Source: Carnobacterium iners (lineage in GTDB: Bacteria; Bacillota; Bacilli; Lactobacillales; Carnobacteriaceae). From it: DNA of 64,000 bases. The position numbers were made by a program, and so were the translations under genes. The stretch lies in NCBI RefSeq assembly GCF_900177385.1, contig NZ_FXBJ01000002.1, positions 686,001-750,000 on the forward strand, written 5' to 3'. The notes beneath the pieces were generated by a model that saw nothing but the letters and a program-made list of their open reading frames with translations, did not search any database and was not told the DNA's origin. Every line of letters begins with the position of its first letter. The first letter of the stretch is position 1. Shown here piece by piece: positions 913 through 5,253 of this stretch.

Positions 913-1362
913 ATGAAGGCTCTTATTTTATGGTTGGCTAGTTTAGTTAATGAAATACATGATCAAATTTCTTTGCGGGTCGGAATACAAATGACAGATA
1001 AAGAATTGCATTTTTGGGTAATCGGACTAGTAGGTATTGCATTCTTTCTATTAGTTTATCCTATTTTTAAGTGGATTGATAAGTTTAAATTTAAAACGAC
1101 GATACTAGCATTTATCTACACATTTACTGTAATGATTGTTTTAGTTTTTGCGATTGAAATCCAACAAGCTATTACTGATCGAGGACAGATGGAGTTTAGT
1201 GACGCTGTAGTAGGGCTTTGGGGATTTATAGTACTCTTTTTTATCTATAGCATAGTTGCGGGGATTGTCTACGGCTTCGTTCAATTCCTAAAAAGACCAA
1301 AAAATAAAAAGACTACTAGCGAATCAACAACACCTTTGAAAAAATTTCGTTCAAAAAAATAA
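913..1362 (+). CDS. small membrane protein, VanZ-like pattern
   Basis: A 149-residue protein with three clear hydrophobic segments (about residues 33-54, 64-85 and 98-124) and a lysine-rich tail that should be cytoplasmic. The pattern DKELHFW near residue 29, then IEIQQ with a following R and D, resembles the layout of VanZ-like membrane proteins (DK..HF ... IE..Q...R...D...G), but this is a weak motif match and no activity is implied. The start ATG has GGAGG 8 nt upstream. It is transcribed apart from nusG, behind that gene's terminator. Its stop codon region supplies the first A of the target sequence used by the insertion elements that follow. Confidence 0.7.
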   Translation: MKALILWLASLVNEIHDQISLRVGIQMTDKELHFWVIGLVGIAFFLLVYPIFKWIDKFKFKTTILAFIYTFTVMIVLVFAIEIQQAITDRGQMEFSDAVVGLWGFIVLFFIYSIVAGIVYGFVQFLKRPKNKKTTSESTTPLKKFRSKK

Positions 1363-1379
1363 AAAAGGTGAATTAAGAC
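1353..1379 (+). repeat. 27-bp target-site duplication, copy 1
   Basis: Seven A, T, six A, then GGTGAATTAAGAC. The same 27 bases recur at 3074-3100 and 4680-4706, so the three copies bracket two consecutive insertion elements. IS1202 of Streptococcus pneumoniae is known to make a 27-bp duplication. The boundaries are uncertain by one base because of the A-run. Confidence 0.9.
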
Positions 1380-3073
1380 TGTCAATGATAAATGAAAATG
1401 TCCCGTTTTTATATAATAATGAGTTTGGATTATCAACCCTTTTTACTCGCTTTCGCAGATTAACGACCGCGCTTCGCTTGCTAAAGTTGTTCAGGATAAT
1501 TCCTTCAAAAACCATGAAGCAACCATCCTAAACAACTGCTATAAAAAAGCTATACAAAATTGGTTCGCTACTTTATTTGAGTAAAGCACCTTTTTTTATA
1601 GCTTCTTTTTGTTTTTTATTTCTAAGATAACGATCATAGGATGGTTTTTTCCAAGGATGAGATAAGGCCGGTATTACTAATTGAGTCTTTCTCGCTCTTA
1701 CAGGTTCATCTAATTCTTTCGATACTTCTTCATGTAATAAAATTTCTTGTAAGGAAAACACCGAATTATCAACGCTAGCGTATAACTCATTTCCCTTTGT
1801 ATGGATAATCATGACGCTTGTTTTTGGAGTAAGTAAAACCTGCTGGTTTTGATCATGCAAGCGATAAAGCTTATTTTGATACTTCACGCCATGACCTTTT
1901 TGGATAATTCGTTGCGAAAATCGAGCGAGTATATGATCCAAAATGACTGTTTTTGGTAGCTTTTCAAAAGCACTTTTGCTATCCTTGAGCTGTAAAGCAA
2001 ATTTGGCATTATATGTAGGAATGTAATGCTTCAAAAATAGATTTGCTTCATCGATTGATTGGATAGAACATAAGGCCATTTCTTGAAGGAGACGATCTTG
2101 GAGTGTATTCCAAAGCCGTTCTATTTTTCCTTTTGCTTGAGGGATACTAGTTGTACGTAAGTTTATTCCTAAAGTATGGCAGGCATATCCAAATTGTGTA
2201 AAAGTATCCTTTTCTTCAGAAGGGTGCTTTTCTTGTTTATAGATAAAAACCGTACGGTTATCTGTTAAAATTTCGTAAGGAATACCGTAGTTGGTCAAAA
2301 ATTGCTCCGTCACTTCATAATAAGCGTCTAGCGTCTCCTCCTTATCAAAACGGGCTCCTACTATAATCCCAGTTGCGTCATCGATTGCAGCGTGTAAATG
2401 AGCATATGACCCGTTTTTAAACCAATCATGAGAGGAAGCGTCCATTTGAAGCTGTTCGCCAAAGTATTTCTTGCGAGAACGACTTGGATGAGCCTTCAAT
2501 GTATCTACATAATCTAATTCATTTAATACCTGACATTTTTTTTTTGTTAGTACTTGTTTATGTTGTTCCTTTTCTTGCAATTCCTTATGTTTTTTTCTTT
2601 TTGTTTGTCGAAAAGCACGTGGGGATAAGAGATTTTTTTCATACAATAAGTTTCGTACCGTTGTGTATGAGACTTGGATATTTTCTACTTCAACTAATTT
2701 CTCAGTAAAGTGTGTAAGATTGAACGCTTCATATTTCTTGTTGTAAAGCGTAATAATTTTTTTCTTAGTTTCAGGTGTTAAACCAGTAGAAGGTTTCCGA
2801 TTCTGATTCCCATGTCTAAAGCCGCTTTTACCTTCTGTCTGATAAACCCGAATTAATCGATTGATTTGTCTACGAGATAGAGCTAACTCGACTCCTGCAC
2901 GAGCTTTGGAAATTTGTCCATTGTTTATTTTTTTTATGGTCTTATATTTTTGTTCTTCAAACATCTTTAGGTGAACTCCCATCAAATCACTCCAATCCTT
3001 CTAGATTAGAGTAACGTAGTTACGGGACATTTTCATTTGTTAACTATTAAGACATTATCATTTGTTAATGACA
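1380..3073 (-). mobile_element. IS1202-like insertion sequence A
   Basis: The element lies between 27-bp repeat copies 1 and 2. The left end reads TGTCAATGATAAATGAAAAT and the right end, read inward, TGTCATTAACAAATGATAAT, giving imperfect terminal inverted repeats of about 24 bp. It holds one transposase gene on the minus strand. Length (about 1.69 kb), end sequence TGTCA, long duplication and transposase type agree with the IS1202 group. All parts look intact, so it may be mobile. Confidence 0.88.
1573..2982 (-). CDS. IS1202-family DDE transposase (element A)
   Basis: Transposase that should cut and join the ends of element A. The N-terminal part (about residues 20-60) is a helix-turn-helix region (SRRQINRLIRVYQ), followed by a lysine-rich linker and an integrase-like catalytic core. 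Candidate catalytic residues are Asp in QMDASS (about residue 181), Asp in LTDNRTVF (about 241) and Glu in KGKIERLW (about 288). I place the start at ATG 2982, 7 nt behind GGAG; a TTG one codon earlier and an ATG seven codons later are alternatives. The gene is full length with no frameshift. It is related to, but clearly different from, the transposase of element B, so the two elements are not recent duplicates. Confidence 0.9.
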   Translation of the reverse strand: MGVHLKMFEEQKYKTIKKINNGQISKARAGVELALSRRQINRLIRVYQTEGKSGFRHGNQNRKPSTGLTPETKKKIITLYNKKYEAFNLTHFTEKLVEVENIQVSYTTVRNLLYEKNLLSPRAFRQTKRKKHKELQEKEQHKQVLTKKKCQVLNELDYVDTLKAHPSRSRKKYFGEQLQMDASSHDWFKNGSYAHLHAAIDDATGIIVGARFDKEETLDAYYEVTEQFLTNYGIPYEILTDNRTVFIYKQEKHPSEEKDTFTQFGYACHTLGINLRTTSIPQAKGKIERLWNTLQDRLLQEMALCSIQSIDEANLFLKHYIPTYNAKFALQLKDSKSAFEKLPKTVILDHILARFSQRIIQKGHGVKYQNKLYRLHDQNQQVLLTPKTSVMIIHTKGNELYASVDNSVFSLQEILLHEEVSKELDEPVRARKTQLVIPALSHPWKKPSYDRYLRNKKQKEAIKKGALLK

Positions 3074-3100
3074 AAAAAAATAAAAAAGGTGAATTAAGAC
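3074..3100 (+). repeat. 27-bp target-site duplication, copy 2
   Basis: Same sequence as 1353-1379 and 4680-4706. It is shared between the two elements, serving as the right flank of A and the left flank of B, which shows that the second element entered exactly at the edge of the duplication made by the first. Confidence 0.9.
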
Positions 3101-3134
3101 TGTCAAGCGAAAGAGAAAATGTCCTAAAACCAAG

Positions 3135-3185
3135 GGTCACATTAATGCAAGCTTTTACTTCGCAAAAGCTTGCATTAATGTGACC
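3135..3185 (-). repeat. 22-bp perfect inverted repeat downstream of transposase B
   Basis: Arms 3135-3156 and 3164-3185 are perfectly complementary (GGTCACATTAATGCAAGCTT start) with a 7-nt spacer. It is located behind the transposase stop codon and inside the left end of the element. It could end the transposase transcript or block outside transcripts from entering the gene. There is no strong T-run, so it is not a standard terminator. Confidence 0.8.
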
Positions 3186-3204
3186 AAATTTGTTAAAATT
3201 AGTC

Positions 3205-4590
3205 TTAAGCTGTTTGTTCAGCTTCATACTCTTCGAGTGTTTTTTCGACACTACGAAGATATCTTTTGAAAGACTCTAGTTTCCACGGGTGAGATTGTAG
3301 GGGAATATACTGGCGTCTTTCTTTTTTTTGCTCTGGAATCGAATCAAATTCTTGTGAGTAGTAGTCATGTTCTTTCAGTCTCCTTGTTGTGTATATTTTT
3401 TCAGCTATATTTACATAGATATTTCCATTAAACGCTTCGATAATTAGCACCTTTGATCTTCGCGTAAAGTATCTATCTTCACTACCTTCCGTAGGCAGGT
3501 AATAGTTATTTTGATAACGAATATGATGCCCACTATCCACTTTTCTATTAGCTACTCGTGCTAATAATAAATTGATTTCTGATTTAGTTGGTGTATTTTC
3601 ATAGATGGATTCCTTCGTTTTATTACCAAACTTCTTATTAAAAGTTCTAACCCATTTTATTAAAAAGTGATTGGCTTCCTCCATAGACTGTATTCCAGCT
3701 AATTCTAAATCTACAGGAAGTCGCGATTGAACAGTCCCGTTTAAACGCTCTACACGGCCCTTAGCTTGTGGTATAGACGTGGTATTAACCTCAATACCGA
3801 GTTGATGACAGGCAAAACCAAACTGGGTAAATGTATCTTCTTCAACCGCTCTCATGGCTTTTGATGTGTATTCAAAAACAGTTCGTTTATCTGTTAAAAA
3901 AGCTAAGGGGATGCCTTGTTTCGTTAGGATTTGATTGAGCACATGATAATAGCCCTTGAGTGTTTCTTGCGTATCGAAATAAGCCCCAACGATGTTACCA
4001 GAAGCGTCATCAATAGCTAAATAAAGATGTGCCACATCTTTACCAAACCAGTTATAGGAGCTGGCATCCATTTGAATAAGCTCCCCCTGATATTTCTTTC
4101 TAGGACGGCTAGGATGGCTTTTTTCGGGTAACTCCATTTGATCTTCTGCTCTTGGAACCAGTGGGTTCTCAACCTCTTTTTTTCCTTTCATTGATTTAGC
4201 TTTGATTCGAGCTTTTATTTTCTTACGCGTTTTTCTTTGAGTTTTAGGTGATAGAATATGAGCTTGATATAAAATACGGCGAATAGTCGTATCAGTGTAA
4301 CAGATGTCATGATCTTCCTTCAAAATTTCAGTAAAATGCTTCACGTTAGGTTTTATCTTAAAACTTTGATAGAGCTCAATTACTTGTTTTTTTGTTTCCT
4401 TAGGCACGGCGTGCTTAGCTATTTTTCCTCTATTACCGTGTGAAAAAACACCTTTTCCTCCTTCTTGATATTCTTGAATTAATCTGTTGACTTGCCTCAT
4501 CGAGAGCCCAAGTTCAATACAAGCTCTCTTTTTGTCCTTTCTTTTTTCTGCCACAGCTTTTATTGCTTTATATTTCTTATCTTCATTCAT
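3205..4590 (-). CDS. IS1202-family DDE transposase (element B)
   Basis: The 461-residue transposase has the same layout as that of element A: N-terminal helix-turn-helix (SMRQVNRLIQEYQ, about 30-42), a basic linker (118-138), and an integrase-type core with Asp175 (IQMDASS), Asp234 (LTDKRTVF) and Glu281 (KGRVERLNG). ATG at 4590 is preceded by AAAGGA. The gene is intact. The DNA between its start and the right end holds two tandem copies of the terminal motif, where transposase binding could also repress its own promoter; that is inference. Confidence 0.9.
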   Translation of the reverse strand: MNEDKKYKAIKAVAEKRKDKKRACIELGLSMRQVNRLIQEYQEGGKGVFSHGNRGKIAKHAVPKETKKQVIELYQSFKIKPNVKHFTEILKEDHDICYTDTTIRRILYQAHILSPKTQRKTRKKIKARIKAKSMKGKKEVENPLVPRAEDQMELPEKSHPSRPRKKYQGELIQMDASSYNWFGKDVAHLYLAIDDASGNIVGAYFDTQETLKGYYHVLNQILTKQGIPLAFLTDKRTVFEYTSKAMRAVEEDTFTQFGFACHQLGIEVNTTSIPQAKGRVERLNGTVQSRLPVDLELAGIQSMEEANHFLIKWVRTFNKKFGNKTKESIYENTPTKSEINLLLARVANRKVDSGHHIRYQNNYYLPTEGSEDRYFTRRSKVLIIEAFNGNIYVNIAEKIYTTRRLKEHDYYSQEFDSIPEQKKERRQYIPLQSHPWKLESFKRYLRSVEKTLEEYEAEQTA

Positions 4591-4679
4591 CGTTAGTAGG
4601 ATCCTTTCATTAGTTTATTTTATCATTTTGGGACATTTTATGCTTCGACCTACTTAGGACATTATCACGTTCGAACGAT

Positions 4680-4706
4680 AAAAAAATAAAAAAGGTGAAT
4701 TAAGAC
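4680..4706 (+). repeat. 27-bp target-site duplication, copy 3
   Basis: Third copy of the sequence at 1353-1379 and 3074-3100. Its last base is directly followed by TTGTTC, the -35 box of the rplK promoter, so both insertions left that promoter intact. Confidence 0.9.
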
Positions 4707-4735
4707 TTGTTCTATGGCATTAAAGATGCTATAGT
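4707..4735 (+). promoter_or_regulatory. rplK-rplA promoter
   Basis: TTGTTC (4707-4712), 17-nt spacer, TATAGT (4730-4735). It is the only good promoter between the insertion elements and rplK, and would give a leader of roughly 85 nt containing the L1-operator-like hairpin. Confidence 0.75.
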
Positions 4736-4827: not shown

Positions 4828-5253
4828 GTGGCCAAAAAAGTTGTTAAGTTAGTTAAATTGCAGATTCCTGCAGGAAAAGCAAGTCCAGCTCCACCAGTAG
4901 GTCCAGCTTTAGGTCAAGCGCAAGTGAACATCATGGGATTCTGTAAAGAATTCAATGCACGTACGCAAGATTTAGGTGGATTACTGACACCAGTTGTTAT
5001 TTCTGTATATGAAGATCGTTCATTTACATTTATTACAAAAACACCGCCTGCGGCTGTTTTGCTTAAAAAAGCTGCTGGTATTGAAAAAGCATCCGGTGAA
5101 CCAAACAAGAAAAAAGTTGCAACCGTTACAAGTGCACAAGTACAAGAAATCGCTGAAACAAAAATGCCTGACCTAAATGCTGCAACTGTTGAAGCTGCTA
5201 TGCAAATGGTAGAAGGTACTGCACGAAGCATGGGAATTACTGTCGAAGGTTAA
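4828..5253 (+). CDS. rplK: 50S ribosomal protein L11
   Basis: L11 forms the GTPase-associated centre with 23S rRNA and the L10-L12 stalk. The GTG at 4828, behind AAGGAGG (4813-4819), gives the standard 141 residues; the open frame extends 24 codons further upstream but those codons cover the leader hairpin and are not L11-like. The N-terminal domain has the proline-rich [18 protein letters not shown] segment and the C-terminal RNA-binding domain the GSAGIEK-type and ARSMGI segments. It is followed by rplA after a 97-nt gap with a second L1-operator-like hairpin. Confidence 0.97.

Follow-up and report, generated by a model that had tools for sequence, protein, structure and literature searches.

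How did two unlike transposable elements come to occupy exactly the same position upstream of a ribosomal protein gene, and what is recognized there? The question is raised by the window analyzed here, a 64,000-nucleotide stretch of Carnobacterium iners contig NZ_FXBJ01000002.1 (G000:C2:686001-750000), in which two complete insertion sequences (ISs), termed ISa and ISb, lie between rplK and an open reading frame (ORF) 3' of nusG. The order is repeat (1353-1379), ISa, repeat (3074-3100), ISb, repeat (4680-4706), TTGTTC, 17 bp, TATAGT, and rplK. The repeat, AAAAAAATAAAAAAGGTGAATTAAGAC, is the same at 27/27 bp in all three copies, and the two transposases are 43% identical across 456 aligned positions. 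The initial annotation, which had placed three identical 27-bp copies around two unlike elements at these coordinates, with the -35 box of rplK directly after the last target base, agrees with the sequence; TTGTTC is found at 4707-4712, with TATAGT 17 bp on. Both transposases match NCBIfam family NF033594 (curated cutoff, 250 bits), with 410 bits for ISa and 385 bits for ISb. The target duplication of ISa is 27 bp, and that of ISb is 26 or 27 bp, since its right boundary may lie 1 bp further on, with the A that opens the repeat assigned to the element. Comparison of these insertions with others in the same and in other genomes makes it likely that transposases of the IS1202 family, to which we assign both elements, choose sigma-A promoters as targets.

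The rplK upstream regions of 17 genomes of the family were aligned by script with the two flanks of the window joined. The empty nusG-rplK site that the initial annotation suggested looking for in relatives was found: a genome of the same genus (L195) carries one element-free copy of the repeat, matching at 26/27 bases, immediately 5' of TTGTTCTATGGCATTAAA..TATAGT, and the site of another genome of the genus (L196) is element free too and more diverged. TTG is present at the same position in all 17 aligned genomes. Because the sister genome carries a single element-free copy, the repeat is, judged from the alignment, host DNA. The possibility that it belongs to the elements did not hold, since the four other copies in the C. 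iners genome have different duplications and the site of the sister genome is empty.

In total, the C. iners genome contains 6 copies at 5 sites, and every site edge is at a -35-like hexamer. A second ISa-type copy (transposase 99% identical) is located at G000:C2:1368855, and three further copies are of the ISb type (transposases 98 to 99% identical). The four copies outside the stack have duplications of 25, 27, 27, and 28 bp with unrelated sequences. Unrelated targets at other copies, which the initial annotation had named as a finding that would speak against its reading, were thus seen as far as the duplicated letters are concerned but not in the adjoining -35-like hexamer, which is common to all own-genome sites. 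The copies are found at TTGACA-17-TAAATT before rpmG-secE-nusG (just outside the window), at TTGACA-17-TAAAAT before a permease gene, at TTGCTT-17-TATACT before an spx-like gene, and, in L008, at a perfect -35 box (TTGACA) whose -10 box is poor, where a multicopper oxidase gene is interrupted (around L008 3030-3057); gene names at these sites were assigned by eye from the translations. L008 is the only one of the five own-genome sites seen within a gene. Just left of the window, an ISb-type element (L007 1479-3110; G000:C2 ~684000-685600) is located at the rpmG-secE-nusG promoter, and two neighboring essential operons (rpmG-secE-nusG and rplK) hold three IS1202-family elements within ~7 kb.

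Promoter signal at the insertion edge

The promoter-edge hypothesis was formed on the own-genome copies and then tested in other genomes. Genomes with a match numbered 17/395 in the order, 11/398 in the class, 12/398 in the phylum, and 3/5 in the genus, in searches that overlap; a further phylum search with the more distant class gave matches in 30/348 genomes. The sample was extended by all copies in 14 matched genomes and by 52 named loci. Duplications were located by a script under a rule that required a TGT start, a length of at least 15 bp, and at most 1 mismatch. Of the 148 loci in the first batch, 50 had no duplication under this rule and 17 repeated an insertion already present. From the remaining 81, we removed three, namely, the window's ISa (its right neighbor is ISb, and the site was counted once), L065 (repeat in a neighboring copy), and L059 (edge not at TGTCA). 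The second batch of 60 loci yielded 24 kept, 28 without duplication (9 of them plasmid controls), and 8 repeats. Merging the 78 and 24 gave 98 distinct insertions, nearly all from the phylum of the window; they include L090 and L106, which have mismatches at the edge, so that their exact length was measured as 0 and 2. The background consists of the other offsets within the same joined flanks.

Several features of the 98 insertions point to a promoter at the duplication edge on the side of the transposase gene start. (i) TTG is present at this edge in 75/98 insertions, compared to 2.0% in the background, and a -10 box (at least 5/6 bases) at a spacing of 16 to 18 bp is present in 72/98, compared to 2.9%. 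Both combined, with a -10 box of at least 4/6 bases at 16 to 18 bp, are found in 73/98 insertions and at 0.37% of background positions. The expected edge is within the top 1% of offsets in 75/98 and within the top 5% in 85/98. (ii) Twenty insertions entered the sample only once the rule had been formed; they behave alike, with TTG in 18 and a -10 box (at least 5/6 bases) in 15. (iii) The spacer is 17 bp in 61 of the 75 TTG edges, 12 of the 23 non-TTG edges keep a -10 box of at least 5/6 bases, and an extended -10 (TG before the -10 box) is present in 30/77. Despite its distance of 23 bp from the edge, the -10 box holds about the same amount of information as the -35 box. (iv) The mean promoter score is maximal at offset 0 (9.1, compared to an average of 4.6 at offsets more than 3 away; n = 78) and is back to background 2 bp from the edge. 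The site recognition at the -35 edge that the initial annotation preferred to chance is borne out, and the signal shared by flanks of other copies next to -35 boxes, a comparison that it had proposed, extends across the 98 insertions.

The position of the junctions was compared for the two duplication classes. In the 27-bp class, the -35-side junction is 23 bp from the -10 box in 37/49 insertions (standard deviation [s.d.], 1.2), whereas the distance of the far junction spans 46 to 54 bp, with at most 14/49 at any value (s.d., 1.6); the junction beside the -35 box is thus somewhat less variable. For the 17-bp class, the corresponding figures are 23 bp in 23/30 (s.d., 1.9) and a commonest value with 11/30 (s.d., 2.1). 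Among the 50 elements without duplication, 27 were examined, and the right end of 11 matched at 15/16 positions or better. Ten of these 11 show a promoter-like score of at least 8/12 with a -35 box starting 25 to 27 bp beyond the right end (background, 5.3%; the test took the best of 19 offsets, and the 25- to 27-bp background was computed afterwards), and 7 of the 10 have TTG. Because of these 10/11 elements, the right end appears to face a promoter even where there is no left-side duplication.

In this comparison, one junction borders the -35 hexamer on its upstream side, the other is ~27 bp (in the sister class ~17 bp) further upstream, and the transposase gene nearly always reads away from the promoter. 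The promoter seems to be recognized as a working unit, because the -10 box is about as informative as the -35 box and is kept at about half of the non-TTG edges. We lean toward the view that RNA polymerase holoenzyme at the promoter, and not the -35 letters alone, guides the transposase, which would imply a contact with the polymerase. Because the staggered insertion copies the upstream region, the promoter keeps its -35 box, its -10 box, and the stretch of the UP element. The rebuilt, intact promoter would stay a target, open to another hit at the same edge, and a newcomer would land between the promoter and the older element, pushing the latter outward. Since the duplication leaves the promoter whole, repeated insertion could therefore occur, which would explain the ISa-ISb stack. 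ISb should then be younger than ISa; the identical repeats themselves give no age order. A second stack (L274 1069-4207), in a genome of another family, consists of two related elements at one promoter, TTGGCA-17-TATAAT. Its promoter-near copy is open, its outer copy contains stops, and the third repeat is missing; this order would fit a newcomer next to the promoter. At L111 2893-5981, two identical 1,544-bp elements lie head to tail with 0 bases between them; a circular intermediate or the assembly could account for this tandem.

The features of the locus are compiled in Table 1. The ORF at 913-1362, between nusG and rplK, encodes a membrane-like protein of 149 residues without a match in Pfam or NCBIfam, and its stop codon is inside the target repeat. 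A perfect inverted repeat of 22 bp around a 7-base loop (3135-3185), located just 3' of the ISb transposase stop codon, is probably a terminator. The right end of ISa contains GACATTnTCATTTGTTAA twice (3026-3043 and 3051-3068), as putative paired transposase binding sites would give.

Table 1. Features of the stacked elements and the rplK promoter (window coordinates)
Feature	Position	Strand	Basis or remark
Target duplication copy 1, promoter-distal	1353..1379	+	Sequence; contains the stop codon of ORF 913-1362
ISa, IS1202-family element, 1,694 bp	1380..3073	-	Tips TGTCA / TGACA
ISa transposase, 470 aa	1573..2985	-	NF033594, 410 bits
Target duplication copy 2	3074..3100	+	Sequence
ISb, 1,579 bp	3101..4679 (or to 4680)	-	Left tip TGTCA, right tip ..CGAT(A)
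ISb transposase, 461 aa	3205..4590	-	NF033594, 385 bits; TnsB/IstA-like model
Extra linker of the 27-bp class within the ISb transposase gene, ~residues 121-157	4120..4230	-	Alignment
Target duplication copy 3	4680..4706	+	~-36 to -62 of the rplK promoter (UP-element position)
rplK promoter -35 box TTGTTC, adjoining the duplication	4707..4712	+	Sequence; TTG in 17/17 aligned family genomes
rplK promoter -10 box TATAGT, 17-bp spacer	4730..4735	+	Sequence and alignment
rplK, gene behind the targeted promoter	4828..5253	+	Start codon picked by eye

Duplication length and the transposase linker

Subgroups of the IS1202 family with duplications of ~24 to 29, 15 to 18, and 5 to 6 bp and with subgroup-specific indels were reportedly described by Siguier and colleagues in Plasmid in 2023. 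The duplications in our sample fall into two classes, one of 25 to 30 bp (58 elements; mode, 27) and one of 16 to 21 bp (38 elements; mode, 17). For 96 of the 98 insertions, we compared the linker that joins the helical N-terminal part of the transposase to its catalytic domain. It has 48 to 52 residues in 57/58 elements of the long class, the remaining one being L071, with 26 residues owing to a broken frame, and 16 to 19 residues in 34/37 compared elements of the 16- to 21-bp class. The plasmid controls in the alignment have a linker of 16 residues in 6/6 cases (five of the short-duplication type and one ISEsa1-like). In a tree of 29 proteins, the 14 rows labeled 27 group in a single clade (95/89), to which L135 is sister (100/99); for L148, whose own duplication was not seen, the label was taken from its sequence. 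L135 is a Mollicutes element with a short linker and an 18-bp duplication, and it falls into the "near" group, the "near" and "far" groups being set by identity. The tree would fit a single gain of the linker together with an extra helical turn. In the structural model of the ISb transposase (mean predicted local distance difference test score, 80), the linker begins as a helix and continues into a stretch modeled with low confidence. The extra ~33 residues that lie between the DNA-binding and catalytic parts may widen the stagger by about one helical turn, from 17 to 27 bp.

Alternative explanations and exceptions

The transposase might read the -35 hexamer itself, as TTGACA-like DNA beside the cut, with no involvement of the polymerase. 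The strength of TTG at the edge is what this explanation predicts, and so is L008 with its perfect TTGACA and poor -10 box inside a coding gene. We nevertheless regard it as unlikely, given that the -10 box carries about as much information as the -35 box, that it follows at a spacing of 17 bp in most TTG edges, and that a good -10 box is retained at 12/23 of the edges lacking TTG. The initial annotation had also proposed that a promoter-proximal or structural feature of the A-rich target may be selected; a bent A-rich stretch would be one such feature. The duplications of the near group are indeed A+T rich, and weak maxima are seen at about positions -5, -17, and -28 relative to the edge; these maxima amount, however, to at most ~0.44 bit, compared to up to 1.37 bit in the -35 box, and UP elements would show A-tracts anyway. 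Since the duplications vary widely and TTG is present in 24/28 edges of loci with at least 45% G+C, this part of the initial annotation is not supported. Targeting of A-tracts or of DNA structure as the main rule is very unlikely and was rejected, because the signals at the edge greatly exceed those in the duplication and persist at G+C-rich loci.

Two further explanations dispense with target choice at the promoter or with a second insertion. Insertions might occur anywhere, with only those that spare promoters and genes surviving to be seen. An insertion upstream of a promoter should be mild, and in a crude count the first downstream ORF reads away from the element in 59/78 cases, in the opposite direction in 17, and was not found in 2. 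Selection would not, however, fix the junction to the base, as is seen in the 23-bp distance to the -10 box in 37/49 and 23/30 insertions and in a mean score that is at background already 2 bp away. This base-level precision led us to reject survivor bias, which we consider extremely improbable. The stack might also result from homologous recombination between elements or repeats, for which the 27-bp repeats could in principle serve. ISa and ISb are unlike, however; complete duplications flank both of them at one and the same edge, and copies of either type occur singly at other promoters. Together with the empty site of the sister species, the unlikeness of the elements led to the rejection of this origin, which is hardly credible.

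A number of observations weigh against promoter targeting, guidance by the polymerase, or the role of the linker. Thirteen of the 98 edges are outside the top 5% at the expected place. In three of them (L171, L078, and L182), a good promoter is found at the opposite edge and on the opposite strand, the element being reversed; in six (L066, L067, L069, L076, L088, and L134) neither side fits well; and four (L097, L057, L074, and L081) have weak promoter scores at the edge. In L073, one of the 11 elements without duplication and with a clear right end, no promoter was found. L008 favors some reading of the sequence by the transposase. The promoters are predicted from letters alone, and insertions within one genome are only partly independent. 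Finally, three elements of the 16- to 21-bp class (L080, L100, and L066) have a long linker; the duplications of L080 and L100 are ~27 bp by eye once one mismatch is allowed, and L066 remains an exception.

Relation to the IS1202 family and to known targeting systems

We took NF033594 as the IS1202 family on the basis of plasmid relatives annotated as "IS1202-like element ISEsa1" and "ISNCY-like element ISKpn21"; both ISEsa1 and ISKpn21 are named in Table 7 of the survey of this family (PMC10132070). A glutamine seven residues after the catalytic glutamate is given there as a family feature (PMC10132070), and in ISb these residues are E281 and Q288, with E invariant and Q nearly so in 29 aligned rows. 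The tips 5'-TGT/ACA-3' are present at both ends of ISa and at the left end of ISb, whereas the right end of ISb is ..CGATA, like that of its close relatives. Pfam searches with the transposases returned only rve and helix-turn-helix families, all but one below the curated cutoff.

The long-duplication group of the family includes IS1202 and ISSeq2 with 27 to 28 bp and ISTde1, ISHahy13, and others with 16 to 17 bp (Harmer, Pong and Hall 2023, PMC10132070). ISa (27 bp) and ISb (26 or 27 bp) match the 16- to 28-bp range of this group and resemble it in transposase family, left tips, and element size (PMC10132070). They differ from the group as published in that the target here is the edge of a predicted sigma-A promoter, whereas in the part of the survey available no target is reported for elements with 16- to 28-bp duplications (Harmer et al. 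2023, PMC10132070). Promoter-targeting transposition and the IS1202 family are both known; searches of an open-licence library returned no publication on their combination, on the junction at the -35 box, or on the linkage of the two classes. If correct, our reading supplies a target for the long-duplication elements, a question open in print, and suggests a reason for their unusually long duplications, in that the DNA upstream of the -35 box is copied and the promoter survives. A long duplication would then be a way of landing harmlessly on essential promoters. The 17- and 27-bp classes would form a natural pair for testing how the linker sets duplication length, and the insertions, which mark promoters nearly to the base, could aid promoter mapping in genomes without transcript data.

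The dif-targeting ISAjo2 group of the same family generates 3- to 5-bp duplications and lands 5 bp from the XerC sites of dif/pdif (PMC10132070). Both arrangements consist of the right end of the element, a gap the size of the duplication, and then the site of a host DNA-binding complex, but the published duplication of the ISAjo2 group is 3 to 5 bp and its site is that of a recombinase, compared to 17 or 27 bp and a promoter for the elements described here. In our dif controls, judged against the site letters given in PMC10132070, a XerC-like site 5 bp past the right end (by eye), followed by a XerD site (10 to 11 of 11 bases), is present in 5/8 (L265, L266, L267, L271, and L272), and XerC/XerD sites were not made out in L268, L269, and L270; when the plasmid controls were scanned automatically for 5-bp duplications, there was no hit. 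In four ISEsa1-like elements (L264, L275, L276, and L277) with three different right flanks (L275 equals L276), the right end is 15 to 16 bp before TTGCCT or TTGCAT, which is followed after 17 bp by a weak -10 box (3/6 bases, TAnnCT); a duplication was looked for in these four, and none was found. The locus beside them is presumably of the hok type. The promoter-like site near these right ends is a lead and not a result. Tentatively, and with rather less confidence than in promoter targeting itself, the IS1202 family may be viewed as transposons that dock on host complexes bound to DNA (XerC at dif and sigma-A polymerase at promoters), with the same end facing the complex across one duplication, whose length would step by about one helical turn (5, ~17, and ~27 bp), and with a linker of ~33 residues, gained once, as the ruler for the step from 17 to 27 bp.

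Among other systems, TnGBS, ISLre2, and part of the ISKra4 group have Mutator-type transposases and target promoters, with 8- to 9-bp duplications (Guerillot et al. 2014, PMC3942029). TnGBS and related elements insert 15 to 17 bp upstream of the -35 box, and TnGBS has been proposed to interact with one of the subunits that make up the polymerase initiation complex (PMC3942029). These elements share promoter targeting with the IS1202 elements, but their transposase family is unrelated, and TnGBS and ISLre2 differ from ISa and ISb in duplication length (8 to 9 versus ~27 bp) and in the position of the junction (15 to 17 bp off the -35 box versus at it). The IS1202 elements would thus be another, unrelated case of promoter-targeted transposition by a DDE (aspartate-aspartate-glutamate) enzyme besides TnGBS/ISLre2. 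The best-ranked solved folds for the ISb transposase model are TnsB of Tn7 and the CRISPR-associated transposons and IstA of IS21, to which a TnsB profile match is added; the best Foldseek hit is 7svw (TnsB), with an E value of 6.6e-13 and a template modeling score of only 0.36. Unlike Tn7, the CRISPR-associated transposons, and IS21, ISa and ISb encode a transposase alone according to the ORF list, and because they encode nothing else, target choice seems to lie in the transposase.

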